A DNA stretch of 64,000 bases from Phycisphaera sp. (lineage in GTDB: Bacteria; Planctomycetota; Phycisphaerae; Phycisphaerales; Phycisphaeraceae). This document shows, in pieces, positions 1,472 to 9,702 of the stretch (position 1 is the stretch's first letter; each line of letters begins with the position of its first letter). The stretch spans positions 50,771 through 114,770 of the forward strand of contig WGMF01000026.1 of assembly GCA_016125215.1 (NCBI GenBank). The letters run 5' to 3'. Both the position numbers and the translations under genes were made by a program. The notes beneath the pieces were generated by a model, which saw only the letters and a program-made list of their open reading frames with translations, was not told the DNA's origin and ran no database searches.

Positions 1472-1500
1472 TGTAACCAAGCGGCCGCGTGTGTGTCTGT
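1472..1500 (+). promoter_or_regulatory. Candidate ECF-sigma promoter upstream of the sigma gene
   Basis: TGTAACC at 1472-1478 and GTGTCTGT at 1493-1500 are separated by 14 bases. The same two blocks with identical spacing occur at 2554-2582 ahead of the exporter operon. An AAC-containing -35 and a GTC-containing -10 are typical of ECF promoters. It lies about 60 bases before the sigma-factor start, which suggests autoregulation. Confidence 0.6.
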
Positions 1501-1561
1501 GGGGGTATGCGGCGTGCGTTTGAAAAAGAACGTTCCCGTGCGGGCCCTGCTGGGCTGACCC

Positions 1562-2206
1562 ATGTCGCAAGCGATGACCGACGAGCAACTGTTGACCCGC
1601 GCCAAGGCCGGCGATTTCTCGGCGTTTGCCGGCCTTGTGGACCGCCACGCGGCGGGTGTTTACACGCTGGCGCGTCGGGTCCTGCGCAACGCCCACGACG
1701 CGGAGGATGTCGTGCAGACCACCTGGCTCAAGGCCCTCGAACACCTCGGCACGTTCCGTGAAGAATCGAGCTTCCAGACCTGGCTCCGGCGGATTGCCAT
1801 GAACACGTCGCTCAATATTCTCCGGAAACATAGGGGCCTGCCGATGTCCGCCCCGCTCGGCGGCAACGATCACGACGAGTACCCCGCGCACGGCCCCGAG
1901 GACATCCGTGAATGGCGAGAAGACGCGGTCGAACAGGCGCAGCGCAGGGAGGTGCGTGAGCAACTCGACCACGCCGTCGCTGAACTCGACGAGAAGCACC
2001 GCCTCGTCTTCGTGCTGCGTGACATCGAGGGCATGAGCGTCGAGGAGACGGCCGGTGCGCTGGGCATCTCGACATCGAACGTGAAGGTCCGCCTGATGCG
2101 CGCGCGTCTGAAACTGCGTGAGCGACTGACCGGGGTGTTCGGTCAAGGCCCGGGGCTCAAGCCCGCGGGTCACGACCACAGCGGCCTGTCCACCCACCGG
2201 GGTTGA
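1562..2206 (+). CDS. ECF-family RNA polymerase sigma factor
   Basis: The 214-residue protein has only sigma regions 2 and 4, as expected for an extracytoplasmic-function sigma factor. Region 2 contains VLRNAHDAEDVVQTTWLKAL with the conserved DAEDVVQ core. Region 4 contains LVFVLRDIEGMSVEETAGAL followed by the recognition helix GISTSNVKVRLMRARLKLRE. The downstream zinc-binding anti-sigma gene begins 11 bases after its stop, pointing to a co-transcribed sigma/anti-sigma pair. A matching promoter motif in front of this gene and in front of the DUF2892-exporter operon suggests it directs both. The inducing signal is unknown; envelope or lipid stress would fit the target genes. Confidence 0.93.
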   Translation: MSQAMTDEQLLTRAKAGDFSAFAGLVDRHAAGVYTLARRVLRNAHDAEDVVQTTWLKALEHLGTFREESSFQTWLRRIAMNTSLNILRKHRGLPMSAPLGGNDHDEYPAHGPEDIREWREDAVEQAQRREVREQLDHAVAELDEKHRLVFVLRDIEGMSVEETAGALGISTSNVKVRLMRARLKLRERLTGVFGQGPGLKPAGHDHSGLSTHRG

Positions 2207-2217
2207 AGGGGATTCCC

Positions 2218-2460
2218 ATGGAATGCAAAGACCTGCTCGAGCTCATCAACCAATACATCGACGAAGAGGTCGATGCGTCGGTCTGCGAGAAGTTCGAGAA
2301 GCACCTGGCCGAGTGCAAACCCTGCCGTGTGGTCATTGATTCCATCCGTGGGACGATCCAGCTTTACCGGGGCGACCAGCCGTATGAACTGCCCGACGAT
2401 GTCCGCAACCGCCTGCACGAAACACTTCAAAAACACTGGTCCAGGCCGCAAGAGGGTTGA
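2218..2460 (+). CDS. Anti-sigma factor with zinc-finger (ZAS-type) motif
   Basis: This 80-residue protein carries the H-x3-C-x2-C zinc-binding motif (FEKHLAECKPCRV) of zinc-associated anti-sigma factors, plus an upstream Cys in MECKDL. The ATG at 2218 is chosen over a TTG at 2203 because the family starts at the MECKDLLELINQYIDEEV helix and AAGGGG lies just upstream. No transmembrane segment is visible, so it should be a soluble cytoplasmic regulator, possibly redox- or zinc-sensing, rather than a membrane-anchored one. It sits directly behind the ECF sigma gene, its expected partner. Confidence 0.85.
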   Translation: MECKDLLELINQYIDEEVDASVCEKFEKHLAECKPCRVVIDSIRGTIQLYRGDQPYELPDDVRNRLHETLQKHWSRPQEG

Positions 2461-2553
2461 CCGGTTGATCTTCCGACGTGCCGTATCGGCGCTCGAGCGG
2501 ACGAATCAATCAAAATTTTATACACGGCTTGTCCGTACGTCCGTACACTCGTT

Positions 2554-2582
2554 TGTAACCGCAGTAGGTTTCGCGTGTCTGT
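2554..2582 (+). promoter_or_regulatory. Candidate ECF-sigma promoter upstream of the exporter operon
   Basis: TGTAACC at 2554-2560, 14 bases, then GTGTCTGT at 2575-2582 exactly repeats the element at 1472-1500. The two 14-base spacers are unrelated, so the match is confined to the promoter blocks. It lies about 39 bases upstream of the DUF2892 start. Confidence 0.6.
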
Positions 2583-2851: not shown

Positions 2852-5719
2852 ATGAATTTCCACCCCGCGCGATCGGTCATCCGATTCTCACTCGACCACC
2901 CGAATGTCATCACCGCACTGATGCTCGGTTCGACGCTCGTGCTCCTTGCGCTCGCGGCGATCCCCACGGTGTTGCAACACCCCGTCGGTCCGCTGCCGCC
3001 GGCCCGCATCGACACCGACCCGGAGAACATGCTCCCCCACGACGAGCCGCACCGCGTCTACCACGACCGGATGAAACGCAACTTCTCGATGTGGGACATG
3101 GTCGTCGTCGGTGTCGTCAACGACAAAAATCCGCAGGGCGTCTTCAACCCCGATTCGCTCTTGCGCATCAGGCAACTGACCGACTACGCCAAGACCCTCA
3201 CCTGGCCCGACCCCGGCTTCCCCGACGACCCGACCAAACGCCGCGGCGTGATCGAACCGGACATCATCGCGCCGTCGGTCGTGGACAACATCCAACAGGG
3301 CCGGCAGGGGGAAGTGGTCTTCAGTTGGCTCATGCCGCGCGTGCCGGTGAGCAACACACAAGCCGGCGAGGTCCGTGACGCCGCGCTGAAAATCCCATTC
3401 CTCAAGGGCACGCTCGTCAGCGAAGACGGCAAGGCCATTGCGATCTACCTGCCGATCACCAGCAAGGACATGTCGTACGAAATTCGGCAGAAACTGCTGG
3501 AGAAGATTGCCACGTTCGGGAGCGTCGATGACGAGTTCCACATCACCGGCCTGCCCGTCGCCGAGGACACGTTCGGCGTCGAGATGTTCTACCAGATGGC
3601 GATCTCCGCGCCGCTGGCGATGGGCGTGATCTTCCTGCTCATGTGGTTTTTCTTCAAGAAGCTCTCGCTCATTGTTCCGCCGATGGTCATTGCGATGGTC
3701 TGCGCCGTGGGCACGATGGCGCTGCTCGTCATCACGGGCAACACCATCCACATCATGAGCTCGATGATCCCGATCTTCATCATGCCCATCGCGGTGCTCG
3801 ACGCGATCCACATCCTCAGCGACTTCTTCGACCGTTACCGCCAATTGCGAGAGAGGCGCAAGACCATCGAGCACGTCATGGACACGCTGTTTATGCCGAT
3901 GCTTTTCACGTCGCTCACCACCGTGGCAGGCTTTGCATCGCTGGCCTTGACACCCATCCCGCCGGTGCAGGTCTTTGGCATCTTCGTCGGCATCGGCGTG
4001 TCGCTGGCTTGGATATGGACCATCACCTTCATCCCCGCGGCGGTCATGCTCATCCCCGAGCGCTGGCTTGCGTCGCTGGCCACCGGTGCCCAGGCACACA
4101 CGCACGACGAAGCGCACGGCTGGCTCGGACGCGTGCTCCCCGTCGTCGGGCAGATGACTCACCGCTACGCCAAAGCGATCCTCGTGCTCACGGTCCTGGT
4201 CTCGCTCGTCTCGGAGTACGGCATGAGCCGAATCACCATCAACGACAACCCGACCAAGTGGTTCACCGACAGCCACCCGATCCGTGTCGCGGACCGTGTG
4301 CTCAACGAACACTTCGGCGGGACGTACATGGCGTTTCTCACGCTCGCGCCCAAGGCTGAAGCAGAAACTCCCACGCCTCACACCAAGGCGGACCTACCCC
4401 CGGTCATCGACCCACCCTCGGCATCAGGCGATGCATTGCCGGACTTACCCGCGGGGCTGGGCGGCGATGGCCCGGCGCTGCCCGAGGGTCTGGGCGGTGA
4501 CGCTGTGATGCAAATGCCCACGCCCACGCCAAACACTTTCACGGTCGCTGACGAACCCTTCAAACAGCCCGAGGTCCTGCGGTACATCGCTGACCTGCAG
4601 CAATACCTGCTCACCGTGACCGACGGGCGGGGCGACAAACTCGTCGGCAAGAGCAACTCCGTAACCGACCTGGTCAAGACCGTCCACCGTGAACTACTCA
4701 GCGGCACACAGGCTGATTTTCGTGTGCCCGACTCGGCAAACGGTGTGGCAGACACGCTGCTCCAGTTCCAGAACAGCCACCGACCGCAGGACCTTTGGCA
4801 CTTCATCACGCCCGACCACCGCGAGGCCAGCCTCTGGCTTCAACTGCGCAGCGGCGACAACCGTGACATGTCGCGCGTCGTCCACGCCGTCGACCGATAC
4901 ATCCAGGGCCACCCGCTCCCGGCGGGACTCGAGCACAAGTGGTTCGGCTTGACCTACATCAACGTCATCTGGCAGGAGCGCATGGTCAGCGGCATGTTGC
5001 AGGCGTTCCTCGGCAGCTTCCTCGTGGTGCTGCTCATGATGATTTTCCTCTTCCGTTCCGGGTTGTGGGGTTTGCTCTCAATGATCCCGCTCACGGTGAC
5101 GGTGGGGCTGATCTATGGCTTGATCGGCTTGGTCGGCAAGGACTACGACATGCCCATCGCGGTGCTCAGTTCGCTGTCGCTGGGGCTTGCGGTGGACTAT
5201 GCGATCCACTTCCTGGCACGCAGCCGGGAGGCTTACAGGGAGCACGGCTCGTGGGCCGGGGCCGTCGGTCCGATGTTCGGCGAGCCGGCCCGTGCCATCA
5301 CGCGCAACGCCATCGTCGTGGGTGTGGGCTTTCTGCCGTTGCTCGCTGCGCCGCTCGTGCCCTACAAGACCGTCGGCCTGTTCATCGCGCTGATCCTCCT
5401 GACCGCGGGTTTTGCGTCGCTGTTGATCCTGCCGGCCCTGCTCACGGTGCTGGAGAAGTGGCTCTTCCCCTCGACCGCAGCCAAGTCGATGACCTGCCGG
5501 TGCGGGACCTGCGTGCTCAGCGCTCTGGCCGCCGTGGCATTGGTCGCCATCAACGTGCATCAGTTTCTGGACATCGGCTGGACACACATGACCTGGGCTA
5601 GTTTAGGCGCGGTGGTCGTGCTGCTGGGGCTGTGCTGGGCCTCGTCACGCAGGGCGTCGTGCAAGACCCCGGACACCGCGGAACAAACCGATCAACACAC
5701 GCAAGGAGCGTCATCATGA
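2852..5719 (+). CDS. MMPL/RND-superfamily exporter
   Basis: A 955-residue membrane transporter of the RND/MMPL type, which uses the proton gradient to move lipids or hydrophobic compounds out of the inner membrane. It has two repeated halves. Each has one N-terminal helix, a periplasmic domain and a block of five hydrophobic helices (first block about residues 245-405, second about 710-870). A proline-rich, low-complexity stretch (about 505-560) in the second periplasmic domain contains DLPAGLGG and ALPEGLGG. The C-terminus has two further helices and a Cys-rich link (MTCRCGTC). The stop overlaps the ATG of the LolA-like gene (ATGA). With the LolA-like and DUF1302-like neighbours it forms a likely trans-envelope lipid-transport set. 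Confidence 0.9.
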   Translation: MNFHPARSVIRFSLDHPNVITALMLGSTLVLLALAAIPTVLQHPVGPLPPARIDTDPENMLPHDEPHRVYHDRMKRNFSMWDMVVVGVVNDKNPQGVFNPDSLLRIRQLTDYAKTLTWPDPGFPDDPTKRRGVIEPDIIAPSVVDNIQQGRQGEVVFSWLMPRVPVSNTQAGEVRDAALKIPFLKGTLVSEDGKAIAIYLPITSKDMSYEIRQKLLEKIATFGSVDDEFHITGLPVAEDTFGVEMFYQMAISAPLAMGVIFLLMWFFFKKLSLIVPPMVIAMVCAVGTMALLVITGNTIHIMSSMIPIFIMPIAVLDAIHILSDFFDRYRQLRERRKTIEHVMDTLFMPMLFTSLTTVAGFASLALTPIPPVQVFGIFVGIGVSLAWIWTITFIPAAVMLIPERWLASLATGAQAHTHDEAHGWLGRVLPVVGQMTHRYAKAILVLTVLVSLVSEYGMSRITINDNPTKWFTDSHPIRVADRVLNEHFGGTYMAFLTLAPKAEAETPTPHTKADLPPVIDPPSASGDALPDLPAGLGGDGPALPEGLGGDAVMQMPTPTPNTFTVADEPFKQPEVLRYIADLQQYLLTVTDGRGDKLVGKSNSVTDLVKTVHRELLSGTQADFRVPDSANGVADTLLQFQNSHRPQDLWHFITPDHREASLWLQLRSGDNRDMSRVVHAVDRYIQGHPLPAGLEHKWFGLTYINVIWQERMVSGMLQAFLGSFLVVLLMMIFLFRSGLWGLLSMIPLTVTVGLIYGLIGLVGKDYDMPIAVLSSLSLGLAVDYAIHFLARSREAYREHGSWAGAVGPMFGEPARAITRNAIVVGVGFLPLLAAPLVPYKTVGLFIALILLTAGFASLLILPALLTVLEKWLFPSTAAKSMTCRCGTCVLSALAAVALVAINVHQFLDIGWTHMTWASLGAVVVLLGLCWASSRRASCKTPDTAEQTDQHTQGASS

Positions 5720-6735
5720 AACGCAGGGTTGTGAATGAAAAGCCCCTCCCCTTTGAAGGGGAGGGGTTGGGGAGGGGATGTGCAGCAGGGTATTTCAGAT
5801 TGTTACCCATAGTGGTGACTCGAAACACCCTCCCCCAACCCCTCCCTCTGAAGAGGGAGGGGAGTTTTCAAGCACGATCTAAGCATTGGGCAATGCTTGC
5901 GGGACTGCTGATTGTGCACGTGAGCGTGTTGTTCACGCAGCCCACGCGCGCCCAAGGCGCGGACGACAAGCCCGTTGCCACACCGGGCGTGGAGGAGATC
6001 GTCCATCACGCCAATTACATGGCCTACTACCAGGGCCGGGACGGACGCGCCAAGGTCACGATGACGATCACCGACAGCCAGGGCAGGCAACGCAACAGGC
6101 AGTTCACAATCCCGCGCCGCGACGACACGGAGTCCGAGGACCTGGCCGACGCCGCCTATCGAAGTCGGCAGAAGTTCTATGTTTATTTCCACCAGCCCCC
6201 CGACGTCGCGGGCACGGTCTTCATGGTCCACAAGCACCTGACGGGCGACGACGACCGCTGGCTCTACCTCCCCGGCTTGGACCTGGTCAAGCGCATCGCC
6301 GCCACGGACAAACGCACGAGCTTCGTCGGGTCGGACTTCTTCTACGAAGACGTGTCGGGACGCAGCATCGACCTCGACGAGCACGAACTGACGCAGACCA
6401 CCGATAATTATTTTGTATTGAAAAACACGCCCAAAGACCCGGACTCGGTCGAGTTTTCCCACTACGTGATGTATCTCCACCGGGCCAGCTTCATCCCGGT
6501 CCAGACCATTTACTACGACAAGAACGGCGAAAAATACCGCGTGTACAAGGCCCTGAAGGTCGAAACGATCGGCGGCCACCCGACCGTCACACGCTCAACG
6601 ATGCAGAACCTCAAGACCGGCAGCACCACCGACATGACCTACACCGATGTGAAATACGACACCGGCATCCCCGACGAGGTCTTCACCGAGCGTTACCTGC
6701 GCAAGCCGCCCGCGGAGTATCTTGGCAGCGAGTGA
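5716..6735 (+). CDS. Outer-membrane lipoprotein-sorting (LolA-like) protein with a repeat element in its N-terminus
   Basis: The body (about residues 85-339) is a LolA-like periplasmic carrier of the type found next to RND/MMPL exporters, with WLYLPGLDLVKRI, FVGSDFFYEDVSGR and the C-terminal TYTDVKYDTGIPDEVF segment. The start at 5716 overlaps the exporter stop (ATGA), which argues for translational coupling. Between this start and the apparent signal peptide (AMLAGLLIVHVSVLF, beginning at an in-frame ATG at 5893) lies a palindromic repeat element, read in frame as KPLPFEGEGLGRG and NTLPQPLPLKREG. Either the element is translated as an N-terminal extension or translation starts at 5893, where no good ribosome-binding site is visible. 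The role is probably carrying the exporter's substrate across the periplasm. Confidence 0.8.
   Translation: MKRRVVNEKPLPFEGEGLGRGCAAGYFRLLPIVVTRNTLPQPLPLKREGSFQARSKHWAMLAGLLIVHVSVLFTQPTRAQGADDKPVATPGVEEIVHHANYMAYYQGRDGRAKVTMTITDSQGRQRNRQFTIPRRDDTESEDLADAAYRSRQKFYVYFHQPPDVAGTVFMVHKHLTGDDDRWLYLPGLDLVKRIAATDKRTSFVGSDFFYEDVSGRSIDLDEHELTQTTDNYFVLKNTPKDPDSVEFSHYVMYLHRASFIPVQTIYYDKNGEKYRVYKALKVETIGGHPTVTRSTMQNLKTGSTTDMTYTDVKYDTGIPDEVFTERYLRKPPAEYLGSE
5743..5862 (+). repeat. Palindromic (REP/MITE-like) repeat element, copy 1
   Basis: Two G/C-rich hairpin arms, CCCCTCCCC...GGGGAGGGG at 5743-5768 and CCCTCCCTCTGAAGAGGGAGGG near 5839-5860, flank a ~50-base core, with CACCCTCCCCCAACCCC leading into the second arm. 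A second member of the family is at 8205-8304. This copy lies inside the reading frame of the LolA-like gene without breaking it. Confidence 0.7.
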
Positions 6736-6768
6736 TCGGTTGGCCAGTCTTCGTATTGGGAGTTGCGA

Positions 6769-8184
6769 ATGTTTGTGCGAGCGTCCATCGGTGCGGTGTT
6801 GGGTGTGGGTGTTGTTCTGACCACACACAGCGTGTGCGCGGAGGAACCCACGCTGCCCGAGGGGTTGGATATCCCGGCGGTCACGACACCGCCCGACGCG
6901 CCCGACCTTCCCGAAGGCCTCGGCGGTGGAACGGAACCGACCCAGCCAGCCGCGCCACCCGCGATGGCCAAAGACAAACTCCCCTTCGACCTGTCCGGCT
7001 TCTTCGAGGTGCGCATCGGGCCTTACACGCAAAGTGCGCCGGGCCAGCGCAACGTGGCTGTGGCCGAGTCACGCCTGCAGTTACAGGTAGACAAGACCTG
7101 GCACAAGGTGGCGTTCCGACTGACGGGGGATTTTCTACTCGACGCGGTGCCTTACTCGAACGCGATCGACCCCGAACTCGGCCAGGGCTGGATCGACCTG
7201 CGCGAGGCGTATGTCAGTTTCTCGCCGATCGATTTTGTGGACATCAAAGCGGGCAGGCAGGTTCTCACGTGGGGCACCGGCGATTTGCTCTTCCTCAACG
7301 ACCTGTTCCCCAAGGACTGGAACTCGTTTCTCATCGGACGCGACACCGAGTACCTCAAAGCCCCGTCGGACGCGGTCAAAGTTTCGCTGTTCAGTGACAT
7401 CGTCAACATCGACATGGTCTACACCCCGGCCTTCGACGCGGACCGTTTCGTCGATGGTCGTCGGGTGAGCTACTTCAACCCGATGGTCGGTTCGACGGTC
7501 GGTCGCAGCACGGTGCGTTTTGTGGATCGCCCTCAGCACACCTTCAGCGATGACGAATTCGCGGCCCGTCTCTACCGCAGGCTCGGCGCGTGGGAGCTGG
7601 CGGGCTACCTCTACCTCGGTTATTGGAAAAGCCCGACGGGCACGGACCCGATGACCGGGCGCGGCACGTTCCCCGGCCTGAATGTTTACGGCGCGTCGAT
7701 CCGTGGCCCCCTGGCCGAGGGCATCTTCAACGCCGAGTTGGCTTTCTACGACTCACGTGACGACCGGGGTGGGAGCAACCCCTTTGTCAACAACGACGAG
7801 CTGCGTTTCCTCGTCGGCTTTGAACGCGAGGTGGCGCCGGACTTCACCGTGGGTTTGCAGTATTACCTCGAACAGATGCTTGATCACAACGACTACCGCG
7901 CGACGCTCCCGGTCGGCGTCCCGAGGCGCGACGAGCTGCGCCACGTCGTCACCGCGCGGTTCACACTCATGACGATGATGCAGAACCTCGAGTGGTCGCT
8001 CTTTGTCTTCTACAGCCCGTCCGACAACGACGCCTACCTGCGCCCGCGCGTCCATTACAAGGTCAGCGACCACTGGTCAGCGGAAATCGGCGCAAACGTG
8101 CTGATCGGCGCTAACGAGACAACCTTCTTCGGTCAGTTCCGGGACATGAGCAACGTCTATGTCGCCGCGCGGTATTCGTTCTAA
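6769..8184 (+). CDS. DUF1302-like outer-membrane beta-barrel protein
   Basis: The 471-residue protein has a signal peptide ending near CAEE, an N-terminal proline-rich linker and a barrel-like remainder rich in alternating aromatic and polar strands, ending in the terminal phenylalanine typical of outer-membrane proteins (YVAARYSF). Segments such as WIDLREAYVSF, DIKAGRQVLTWGTGDLLFL and RFTLMTMMQNLEWSLFVFY resemble DUF1302-type porins that accompany MMPL exporters. The ATG at 6769 has GGAG upstream and is preferred to a TTG at 6763. The linker contains TLPEGL and DLPEGLGG, also found in the exporter. It is likely the outer-membrane exit of the module. Confidence 0.82.
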   Translation: MFVRASIGAVLGVGVVLTTHSVCAEEPTLPEGLDIPAVTTPPDAPDLPEGLGGGTEPTQPAAPPAMAKDKLPFDLSGFFEVRIGPYTQSAPGQRNVAVAESRLQLQVDKTWHKVAFRLTGDFLLDAVPYSNAIDPELGQGWIDLREAYVSFSPIDFVDIKAGRQVLTWGTGDLLFLNDLFPKDWNSFLIGRDTEYLKAPSDAVKVSLFSDIVNIDMVYTPAFDADRFVDGRRVSYFNPMVGSTVGRSTVRFVDRPQHTFSDDEFAARLYRRLGAWELAGYLYLGYWKSPTGTDPMTGRGTFPGLNVYGASIRGPLAEGIFNAELAFYDSRDDRGGSNPFVNNDELRFLVGFEREVAPDFTVGLQYYLEQMLDHNDYRATLPVGVPRRDELRHVVTARFTLMTMMQNLEWSLFVFYSPSDNDAYLRPRVHYKVSDHWSAEIGANVLIGANETTFFGQFRDMSNVYVAARYSF

Positions 8185-8204: not shown

Positions 8205-8304
8205 CTCCCCTCACCTTTCAAGGGGAGGAGCGGGGGGGATGTCCGCTGTAGATTGCAGGAACGCACACCCTCCCCCGGCCCCTCCCTCTGAAGAGGGAGG
8301 GGAG
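8205..8304 (+). repeat. Palindromic (REP/MITE-like) repeat element, copy 2
   Basis: The arms CTCCCCTCACCTTTCAAGGGGAGGAG and CCCTCCCTCTGAAGAGGGAGGG are related to copy 1 at 5743-5862; the second arm (CCCTCTGAAGAGGGAGGGGAG) is identical over about 20 bases. Here it fills the gap between the convergent barrel and sulfatase genes, where the hairpins could act as a two-way terminator. Confidence 0.7.
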
Positions 8305-8322
8305 TAAGAGGACGCAGATGGA

Positions 8323-9702
8323 TTAATCTTCCTTGAATTTCCAGCTTGAAATCCCGCCGGACAGTGGGCCGACCATCGGCTTCTTCCATTCGTCGATCAG
8401 GCTGCGCAGCGCGGTGATCTCGTCGGCGTGATCCTGGTAGAGGTTGCTTTTTTCGCCGATGTCCTTGCCCAGGTCGTAGAGCTGGTCGGTTTCGCCGTCT
8501 TTGTAGATGAGTTTTGTATCACCCTCGCGGACGACGTAGAGTTCTTTGTTGTAGAACCGCCAGTAGAGCTGGGGGTGGGGCGTGGTTTTGTCGGACCCGT
8601 CGAGGAAGGGGACGAGGTCGACGCCATCGAGGGGTTTATCTTGTGCGGGTTTTGCCCCGCTGTGGTGGGCAATCGTTGCGGCGATGTCGAGCGAGCTGAC
8701 AGGCTTGTCGTACACGGTCCCCGCGGGGATTTTGCCGGTCCATCGCACGGCAAAAGGCACGCGGATGCCGCCCTCGAAAGGTGTACCCTTGTGCCTGCGC
8801 AGGGGCCAATTGTTTGAGCCGTTGCTGTCCGGCCCGCCGTTGTCGGATAGGAAGAAGACGATCGTGTTATCGTCGAGTTTGAGTTCGTGGAGTTTGTCGA
8901 GAACGCGACCGACGCCGTCGTCGACCGCCGAGACCATCGCGGCGTAGGTCTTGCGCTTGGGGTTGGTGATGTTGGGGAACCGGTTGAGGTATTGCGGCGG
9001 GGCCTGGAGCGGCGCGTGCGGGGCGTTGTAGGCCAGGTAGAGGAAGAAGGGTTTGTTCTTGGCAAGTTCGATGAAATCGACCGCGGCGTCGCTGAATTCA
9101 TCGGTGAGGTACTTGTGTGTGACGATGGGCTTGTCGTTGCGGAGGATTTTTGTCTTATACCAGTCCCATTGTGTTTTGCTGTCTTCTTCGCGATCGAGCG
9201 TGAGTTCTTCGGGGAAGTAGCGGTGCCCTCCGGAGAGGAAGCCGAAAAAGTGGTCGAAGCCGCGGACGGTTGGCCGGAGGTCGGGGTGTGTGCCGAGGTG
9301 CCACTTGCCGATGGCCATGGTGGTGTACCCGACGGGCTTGAGCAGTTCCGCGATGTTCTTCTCGGAAGTGGGCACGCCGTTGTTGGGGACGCTGGGGTCG
9401 ACGGTCGGGTTGCGCAGGGCGCCGAAGCGGTCCTGGTATCGGCCGGTGATGAGGCCCGCGCGGCTGGGGCCACAGACGGCAAAGGTGACGTAGCCGTTCG
9501 TGCAACGCGCGCCTTGCTGGGCGATGCGGTCGATGTTGGGCGTGGGGATGTCCTTGCACCCGTTGAAGCCCACGTCGGCGTAGCCCTGGTCGTCGGTGAG
9601 GATGACGATCAGGTTGGGCGGAGGGTCGGCCAGCGCCTTGAGCGTGCAGAGCGTGATGACGAGGCAGGCCACGGAGAGGCGCAGGGTGGACAATCTAATC
9701 AT
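8323..9702 (-). CDS. Secreted type I (formylglycine) sulfatase
   Basis: A 459-residue arylsulfatase-family enzyme with a signal peptide (to about residue 25). The metal-binding start LIVILTDDQGYADVG is intact. The formylglycine motif C-x-P-x-R appears as CGPSR with Cys77, followed by AGLITGRY. Other conserved segments are GKWHLG, the second metal site FFLSDNGGPDSNG, and a C-terminal DLGKDIGEKSNL. A maturase would be needed to convert Cys77. It is the last gene of a minus-strand locus containing an agarase-like hydrolase, which suggests it removes sulfate esters from an algal galactan. Confidence 0.93.
   Translation of the reverse strand: MIRLSTLRLSVACLVITLCTLKALADPPPNLIVILTDDQGYADVGFNGCKDIPTPNIDRIAQQGARCTNGYVTFAVCGPSRAGLITGRYQDRFGALRNPTVDPSVPNNGVPTSEKNIAELLKPVGYTTMAIGKWHLGTHPDLRPTVRGFDHFFGFLSGGHRYFPEELTLDREEDSKTQWDWYKTKILRNDKPIVTHKYLTDEFSDAAVDFIELAKNKPFFLYLAYNAPHAPLQAPPQYLNRFPNITNPKRKTYAAMVSAVDDGVGRVLDKLHELKLDDNTIVFFLSDNGGPDSNGSNNWPLRRHKGTPFEGGIRVPFAVRWTGKIPAGTVYDKPVSSLDIAATIAHHSGAKPAQDKPLDGVDLVPFLDGSDKTTPHPQLYWRFYNKELYVVREGDTKLIYKDGETDQLYDLGKDIGEKSNLYQDHADEITALRSLIDEWKKPMVGPLSGGISSWKFKED

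Follow-up and report, generated by a model that had tools for sequence, protein, structure and literature searches.

The locus described here raises the question of whether an ECF sigma factor controls both its own gene and the transporter operon that follows it, each of which is preceded by the same pair of short sequence blocks. Our explanation for the locus, which lies within the 64-kb stretch of DNA that we analysed (the window), combines an ECF sigma factor, an RsrA-like thiol switch, two promoters and a transporter operon, and we regard it as likely when taken as a whole. The TGTAACC-N16-GTCTGT sites are likely the -35 and -10 elements of promoters recognised by the sigma factor whose gene lies between the two sites. 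An RsrA-like zinc anti-sigma factor would hold the sigma factor until oxidation or persulfidation of cysteines frees it, and the freed sigma would switch on its own gene pair as well as the DUF2892-MMPL-LolA-porin operon, whose products may carry some lipid-like or thiol-reactive substrate across the envelope. Among the matches listed in the open-licence PMC literature, the portions of text available contain no description of this sigma/MMPL system. The features of the locus are collected in Table 1.

Table 1. Predicted promoters and genes of the sigma factor locus, with positions in the window
Feature	Position	Strand	Remarks
Predicted ECF promoter, sigma-antisigma genes	1472..1500	+	-35 TGTAACC 1472-1478, -10 GTCTGT 1495-1500, 16-bp spacer
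ECF sigma factor, 214 aa	1562..2206	+	Sigma70_r2 4.1e-19, Sigma70_r4_2 1.5e-16
zf-HC2 (ZAS) anti-sigma factor, RsrA-like, 80 aa	2218..2460	+	C3, C23, H29, C33, C36 invariant
Predicted ECF promoter, transporter operon	2554..2582	+	-35 TGTAACC 2554-2560, -10 GTCTGT 2577-2582; kept before DUF2892 in relatives
DUF2892 / YgaP-like transmembrane protein, 70 aa	2621..2833	+	PF11127, E=5.4e-12
MMPL/HAE3-type RND transporter, 955 aa	2852..5719	+	profile match
LolA-like protein	5716..6735	+	PF17131, E=2.7e-57; palindromic repeat element in N-terminal part
Porin-like outer-membrane beta-barrel	6763..8184	+	weak DUF1302 match

The preliminary description had placed two blocks, 14 bases apart and with unlike spacers, once 5' of the sigma gene and once 5' of the operon. 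Both copies of the 29-bp pair TGTAACC-N14-GTGTCTGT were located exactly so, and the gene order agrees; the sites end 61 bp before the sigma ATG (1562) and 38 bp before the DUF2892 ATG (2621), respectively. In the genome-wide search that the preliminary description had called for, many unplaced random matches were not seen: besides these two exact copies, the whole 4.04 Mb genome (4,039,219 bases) contains no third; a single copy deviates at one position and four deviate at two, while a reversed-pattern control gave two matches. Scans of the window with Rfam (gathering scores) and for tRNAs found one tRNA-Glu and nothing near either site. The two-block score of 15 for the two 150-bp upstream regions was equalled by one of 3000 shuffled pairs. 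It was also reached by 3 of 945 control pairs made from the regions upstream of the window's other called ORFs. This control gives a background rate only, and the real sigma gene is absent from it, the ORF caller having taken an overlapping ORF on the opposite strand. The window by itself is therefore modest evidence, a good guess rather than a proof, and the case for the motif is carried by comparative genomics. With this addition, the pair appears to us a convincing ECF promoter pair.

The copy with one mismatch, GTGTCGGT, lies on the minus strand of contig C13 (83544-83572, corresponding to L127 4545-4573), 34 bp before the gene of a secreted-looking protein of 445 aa. Neither Pfam nor NCBIfam gave a match for this protein, and the other eight sigma genomes examined contain no relative of it; its gene is a possible candidate for a third regulon member.

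We searched a genome collection for stretches encoding MMPL relatives and found 123, labelled as many phyla, of which the best 80 loci were kept; many of these 80 genomes are MAGs and possibly incomplete. At E<=1e-40, none of 150 other genomes of the window's own order contained a match to the window MMPL. A sigma orthologue (E<=1e-30) is present in four of the 80 genomes (3/50 and 1/30), namely G151 (locus L009, labelled Nitrospinota), G180 (L045, Nitrospirota), G200 (L082, Manganitrophaceae) and G212 (L062, labelled Nitrospira). The pattern TGTAAC-N17-RTCTRT matched three times in the 80 loci, in L009, L045 and L082, each time 5' of DUF2892, and in none of the 76 loci of genomes lacking a sigma orthologue. 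The fetched locus of G212 starts within the MMPL gene; a different contig from this genome (L106) has the order sigma, anti-sigma, motif, DUF2892 and MMPL start, so that the motif stands before DUF2892 in all four sigma-positive genomes, three times in the fetched locus and the fourth time on another contig. Fisher's exact test for the co-occurrence of sigma and motif gave p=4.9e-5, counting three of the four and not corrected for kinship. Three looser patterns had 6, 38 and 45 matches, with 2, 2 and 6 of them at most 400 bp upstream of an operon gene, and only the three places with N16 spacing before DUF2892 were kept from them. A chance likeness of two unrelated intergenic sequences, for which the 3 of 945 control pairs could be cited, is in our view refuted, since the motif recurs in other phyla with unchanged position and spacing; the probability of this reading is close to negligible.

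The search was extended to relatives of the sigma factor (E<=1e-40), which were found in 5 of 18 genomes of the order of G200 (with G593 and G595 new), 2 of 5 genomes of the phylum of G151 (G606 new) and 4 of 392 genomes of the window's phylum, the window's genome included (the others being G392, G564 and G328). Ten whole genomes with a sigma relative contain nine matches to TGTAAC-N17-RTCTRT: two each in the window's genome and G180, one each in G151, G200, G212, G593 and G595, and none in G392, G564 and G328. The link between sigma, motif and DUF2892/MMPL operon, as first proposed from the window, was borne out by co-occurrence, with all nine matches preceding the operon or sigma and all seven genomes that have both sigma and MMPL operon carrying the motif. 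The three genomes without a motif match also lack an MMPL relative at E<=1e-60. A reversed control gave seven matches in the ten genomes compared with nine real ones, so that the position exceeds background and the number hardly does. Five of the supporting genomes belong to one order and are therefore not independent.

Individual genomes vary this arrangement. In G180, the operon is split into DUF2892-MMPL and LolA-barrel-sigma-anti-sigma, and each half has its own motif copy, with unlike spacers. The unrelated genes that split it (L108, 4400-13640) include, by reading, toxin-antitoxin-like small genes. G606, outside the ten-genome search, has TGTAACT-N16-GTCTTT before DUF2892 and a divergent sigma gene. 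In G328, ORFs assigned by reading give the order DUF2892-sigma-anti-sigma, followed by an outer-membrane-factor/membrane-fusion/RND set, and GTAACC-N17-CTCYRT can be read before both DUF2892 and the OMF-MFP-RND exporter (L104, 7249-7278 and 8728-8757, minus strand); the box score of the site before DUF2892 is 14.8 with a spacer of 17 and 1.7 with a spacer of 16. This is possibly a weaker, off-consensus replicate in which the exporter was swapped under the same regulator. In G200, the sequence TGTAAC-TTTCAAGG-GTCTAT after MMPL (L082, 7658) looks like a further, possibly decayed copy of the promoter in which the spacer is shortened.

The outside sites had first been found with patterns derived from the preliminary description's motif, which introduces mild circularity. 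EM motif finding with the window left out, run on eight upstream regions taken from seven other genomes, gave TGTAACnTnnnnnnnnnTnnnGGGTCTAT, with sites that start 61-109 bp before the start codon and with boxes and spacing as in the window. This run removes the circularity for the operon site, although not for the sigma site. A two-box matrix from the eight outside sites scored 18.7 for both window sites, which tied as best on both strands of the 64 kb, the next score being 14.7. The full-width de novo matrix, which includes T-rich spacer columns, scored 12.8 for the site at 2554, second on its strand and below the 14.6 of position 8782 inside another gene. The site at 1472 scored 0.5, about the same as the best non-site before the sigma gene of G606 (0.0). 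The -10 element reads GTCTGT at both window sites and GTCTAT at six of the eight outside sites, and the core conserved with relatives is TGTAACC-N16-GTCTRT. As a recognition motif, the originally described pair thus stands for both boxes and their spacing, which recur in relatives, but not for the leading GT of its second block, which is unconserved.

The sigma factor has the features of the ECF family. Its sigma2 and sigma4 domains are the only ones in the protein, the gene of a zf-HC2 anti-sigma factor adjoins it, with an adjacent pair also in eight other genomes, and the sequence is 46-50% identical to its relatives in those eight. An AAC in the -35 element and a promoter of its own, both of which belong to the ECF features listed in the available part of PMC8103513, are present in silico. 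We built a tree of 130 sigma sequences, consisting of nine with an adjacent anti-sigma, two solitary ones (having no anti-sigma relative in the 20-kb stretches L102 and L103) and 119 others from 120 listed (1338 found). The nine paired sigmas, each with a site or candidate site, fall into one clade (30 members, support 0.889), and both solitary sigmas are outside it. That the motif belongs to some other regulator, be it a transcription factor or a different ECF sigma, and co-occurs with this one by accident is very improbable: the first look did give several sigma candidates per genome, presumably other sigma genes, but the motif tracks the sigma orthologue across 4 of 80 genomes, is absent from genomes with solitary relatives only, and has the form and spacing of an ECF promoter. 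The operon promoter is very probably a target of the encoded sigma factor. With it, a sigma factor that lacked an assigned target would gain a promoter code, TGTAACC-N16-GTCTRT, together with a single main target.

ECF16 is a known group with a similar promoter. For EcfF-OsrA of Bradyrhizobium, the accessible text of PMC3420878 proposes a promoter tGTAACc-N16 that is autoregulated and oxidant-responsive, and the -35 element and spacing are common to the window sites. However, as far as that text goes, the -10 element of ECF16 is CGAA, compared with GTCTRT in the window system, and OsrA has six predicted membrane helices, whereas the window anti-sigma is a zf-HC2 protein of 80 aa.

The preliminary description had further proposed an autoregulated ECF regulon. 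The operon half of this proposal is conserved, but a site before the sigma gene was found in the window alone, that is for one of 11 sigma genes. In the 250 bp upstream of these genes, the window site has a box score of 18.7 and the other ten have no good site, with scores of 6.0 or less (10.8 or less with a spacer of 15 or 17). In G180 and G200 the sigma gene is downstream of operon genes; in G212 and G595 it is upstream of the motif; and in G151 it lies on another contig. Autoregulation is therefore plausible here and not conserved, and the overall picture would be one of a conserved operon link with a variable feedback arrangement. One could suppose that the operon is the only target, that the site before the sigma gene is a relic and that the sigma-antisigma pair is transcribed from some other promoter with no feedback loop. 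The ten sigma genes without a site would fit this, as would the sigma-70-like TTGTCG-N17-TATAAT that can be read before the sigma gene of G151. Nevertheless, the window site retains both boxes and their spacing at the distance from the ATG given above, within an intergenic gap of 115 bp that follows the preceding gene, and a sigma-70 scan showed nothing promoter-like from 1380 to the start of the sigma gene; moreover, the position of sigma downstream of operon genes in G180 and G200 would give feedback by another route. We thus consider the relic improbable, and autoregulation from the site at 1472 is fairly likely.

The signal can be approached through the anti-sigma factor. C3, C23, H29, C33 and C36 are invariant in all nine relatives, and among them are the N-terminal cysteine and the H-x3-C-x2-C pattern of zinc ligands that mark RsrA-like redox ZAS proteins (C3, H29, C33 and C36). 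RsrA (5frf/5frh, E=0.0033) is the sole PDB sequence match at E<=0.1, and the RsrA equivalog TIGR03988 was missed with 35.3 bits compared with a cut-off of 62.5. From the aligned stretch we infer that C3 would correspond to Cys11, H29 to His37, C33 to Cys41 and C36 to Cys44; in the solved RsrA construct, Ala and Ser stand opposite C23 and C33. According to the available sections of PMC4960319, the trigger disulfide of RsrA requires Cys11 with Cys41 or Cys44. The AlphaFold model of the anti-sigma factor is poor (pLDDT 72, pTM 0.50, third segment as strands), and a model-based comparison with RsrA was dropped for this reason. The arrangement resembles SigR-RsrA of Streptomyces, which responds to disulfide stress, in pairing an ECF sigma and a small zinc anti-sigma that has an N-terminal Cys and H-x3-C-x2-C, and the same sections of PMC4960319 include the SigR-RsrA genes themselves in the SigR regulon. 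It differs in its target, which is a transporter operon, and in an anti-sigma that scores under the RsrA equivalog cut-off. A signal of the thiol type seems somewhat favoured by these residues.

The predicted products of the operon invite a different reading of the signal, in which the sigma/anti-sigma pair senses an envelope or lipid disturbance rather than cytoplasmic thiols and the operon would serve lipid transport in the envelope. The MMPL/HAE3, LolA-like and porin parts hint at traffic of lipids or amphiphiles, and the MMPL protein has a weak similarity to the HpnN hopanoid transporter model, missing the cut-off with 62.7 compared with 751.85 bits. Against this, an 80-aa anti-sigma with RsrA-type Cys/His shows no hydrophobic segment visible by reading, and elsewhere the operon adjoins BigR-like regulators and SQR-like or CoA-disulfide-reductase-like enzymes. 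We consider an envelope signal rather unlikely, and the thiol switch is kept as the preferred reading. The operon is a putative exporter, a label taken from the MMPL family. The AlphaFold2 model of the barrel (pLDDT 73, pTM 0.71) has 17 strands of at least 8 residues, and its best Foldseek matches are porins, with TM-scores by query length of 0.37-0.53 among the 50 listed. By gene arrangement, the operon is similar to MMPL and outer membrane lipoprotein-sorting operons of Porphyromonas and Prevotella, in which MMPL stands beside a LolA-like gene with an adjacent regulator of its own; unlike the window operon, these are TetR-linked and iron/hemin-regulated (PMC10434189, PMC10470040, both in the excerpts available). 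Two copies of a palindromic element (CCCCTCCCTCTGAAGAGGGAGGGG with a partner arm) are present, one at 5738-5867 within the stretch coding for the N-terminal part of the LolA-like protein, the other at 8207-8305 after the barrel gene. Should the element be an insertion, the original start of the signal peptide of the LolA-like protein may have been displaced by it.

The neighbours of the operon in other genomes point to sulfide or persulfide stress, a context that would be linked to the window by homology. ArsR-like ORFs are present in 21 of the 80 operon loci, several of which are too short to judge, and 18 of these 21 are within 400 bp of the MMPL gene. Ten of the 21 have cysteines exactly 66 apart, a spacing that the accessible portions of PMC7315123 and PMC10451225 also give for BigR (C34/C100) and SoxR (C50/C116); for the one ArsR-like protein tested, the best NCBIfam match is BigR, below the cut-off (99.9 compared with 155 bits). 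Ten neighbours picked by eye divide into five with HTH_5 and five with Pyr_redox_2, three of the latter having a rhodanese domain, and of three Pyr_redox_2 proteins run on NCBIfam one matched an SQR model only and two had CoA-disulfide reductase as best match, all below cut-offs. In these respects relatives of the operon resemble the persulfide-sensing ArsR systems of the SqrR/BigR type. Unlike them, the window and the sigma-positive loci have an ECF/anti-sigma pair instead: no ArsR-like ORF, and thus no adjoining ArsR with two Cys 66 apart, was found in the 64-kb window, nor was an ArsR-like ORF found in the fetched loci of G151, G180, G200, G212, G593, G595, G606 and G328.

From this distribution we infer that the ECF/anti-sigma pair may have replaced a persulfide-sensing repressor on the operon. 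Reactive sulfur as the signal is a tentative proposal, and no sulfur gene was seen beside the window operon. More doubtful is the wider idea that a reactive-sulfur-sensing ECF/RsrA-like pair took over, in several phyla, an operon that elsewhere is under SqrR/BigR-type repressors, with MMPL-LolA-porin serving in protection against, or movement of, reactive sulfur or thiol-reactive compounds. A swap of repressor and ECF/anti-sigma pair on one operon would, if true, be a clean example of regulatory replacement, and the widespread MMPL-LolA-porin operon would gain a regulatory and chemical context in thiol or sulfur stress. The anti-sigma gene of G180 is followed by that of a metallo-beta-lactamase/rhodanese protein, and a similar ORF can be read in G200. 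The latter genome also encodes a protein with a THAP4-like heme-binding domain between barrel and sigma (L082, 10054-10611).
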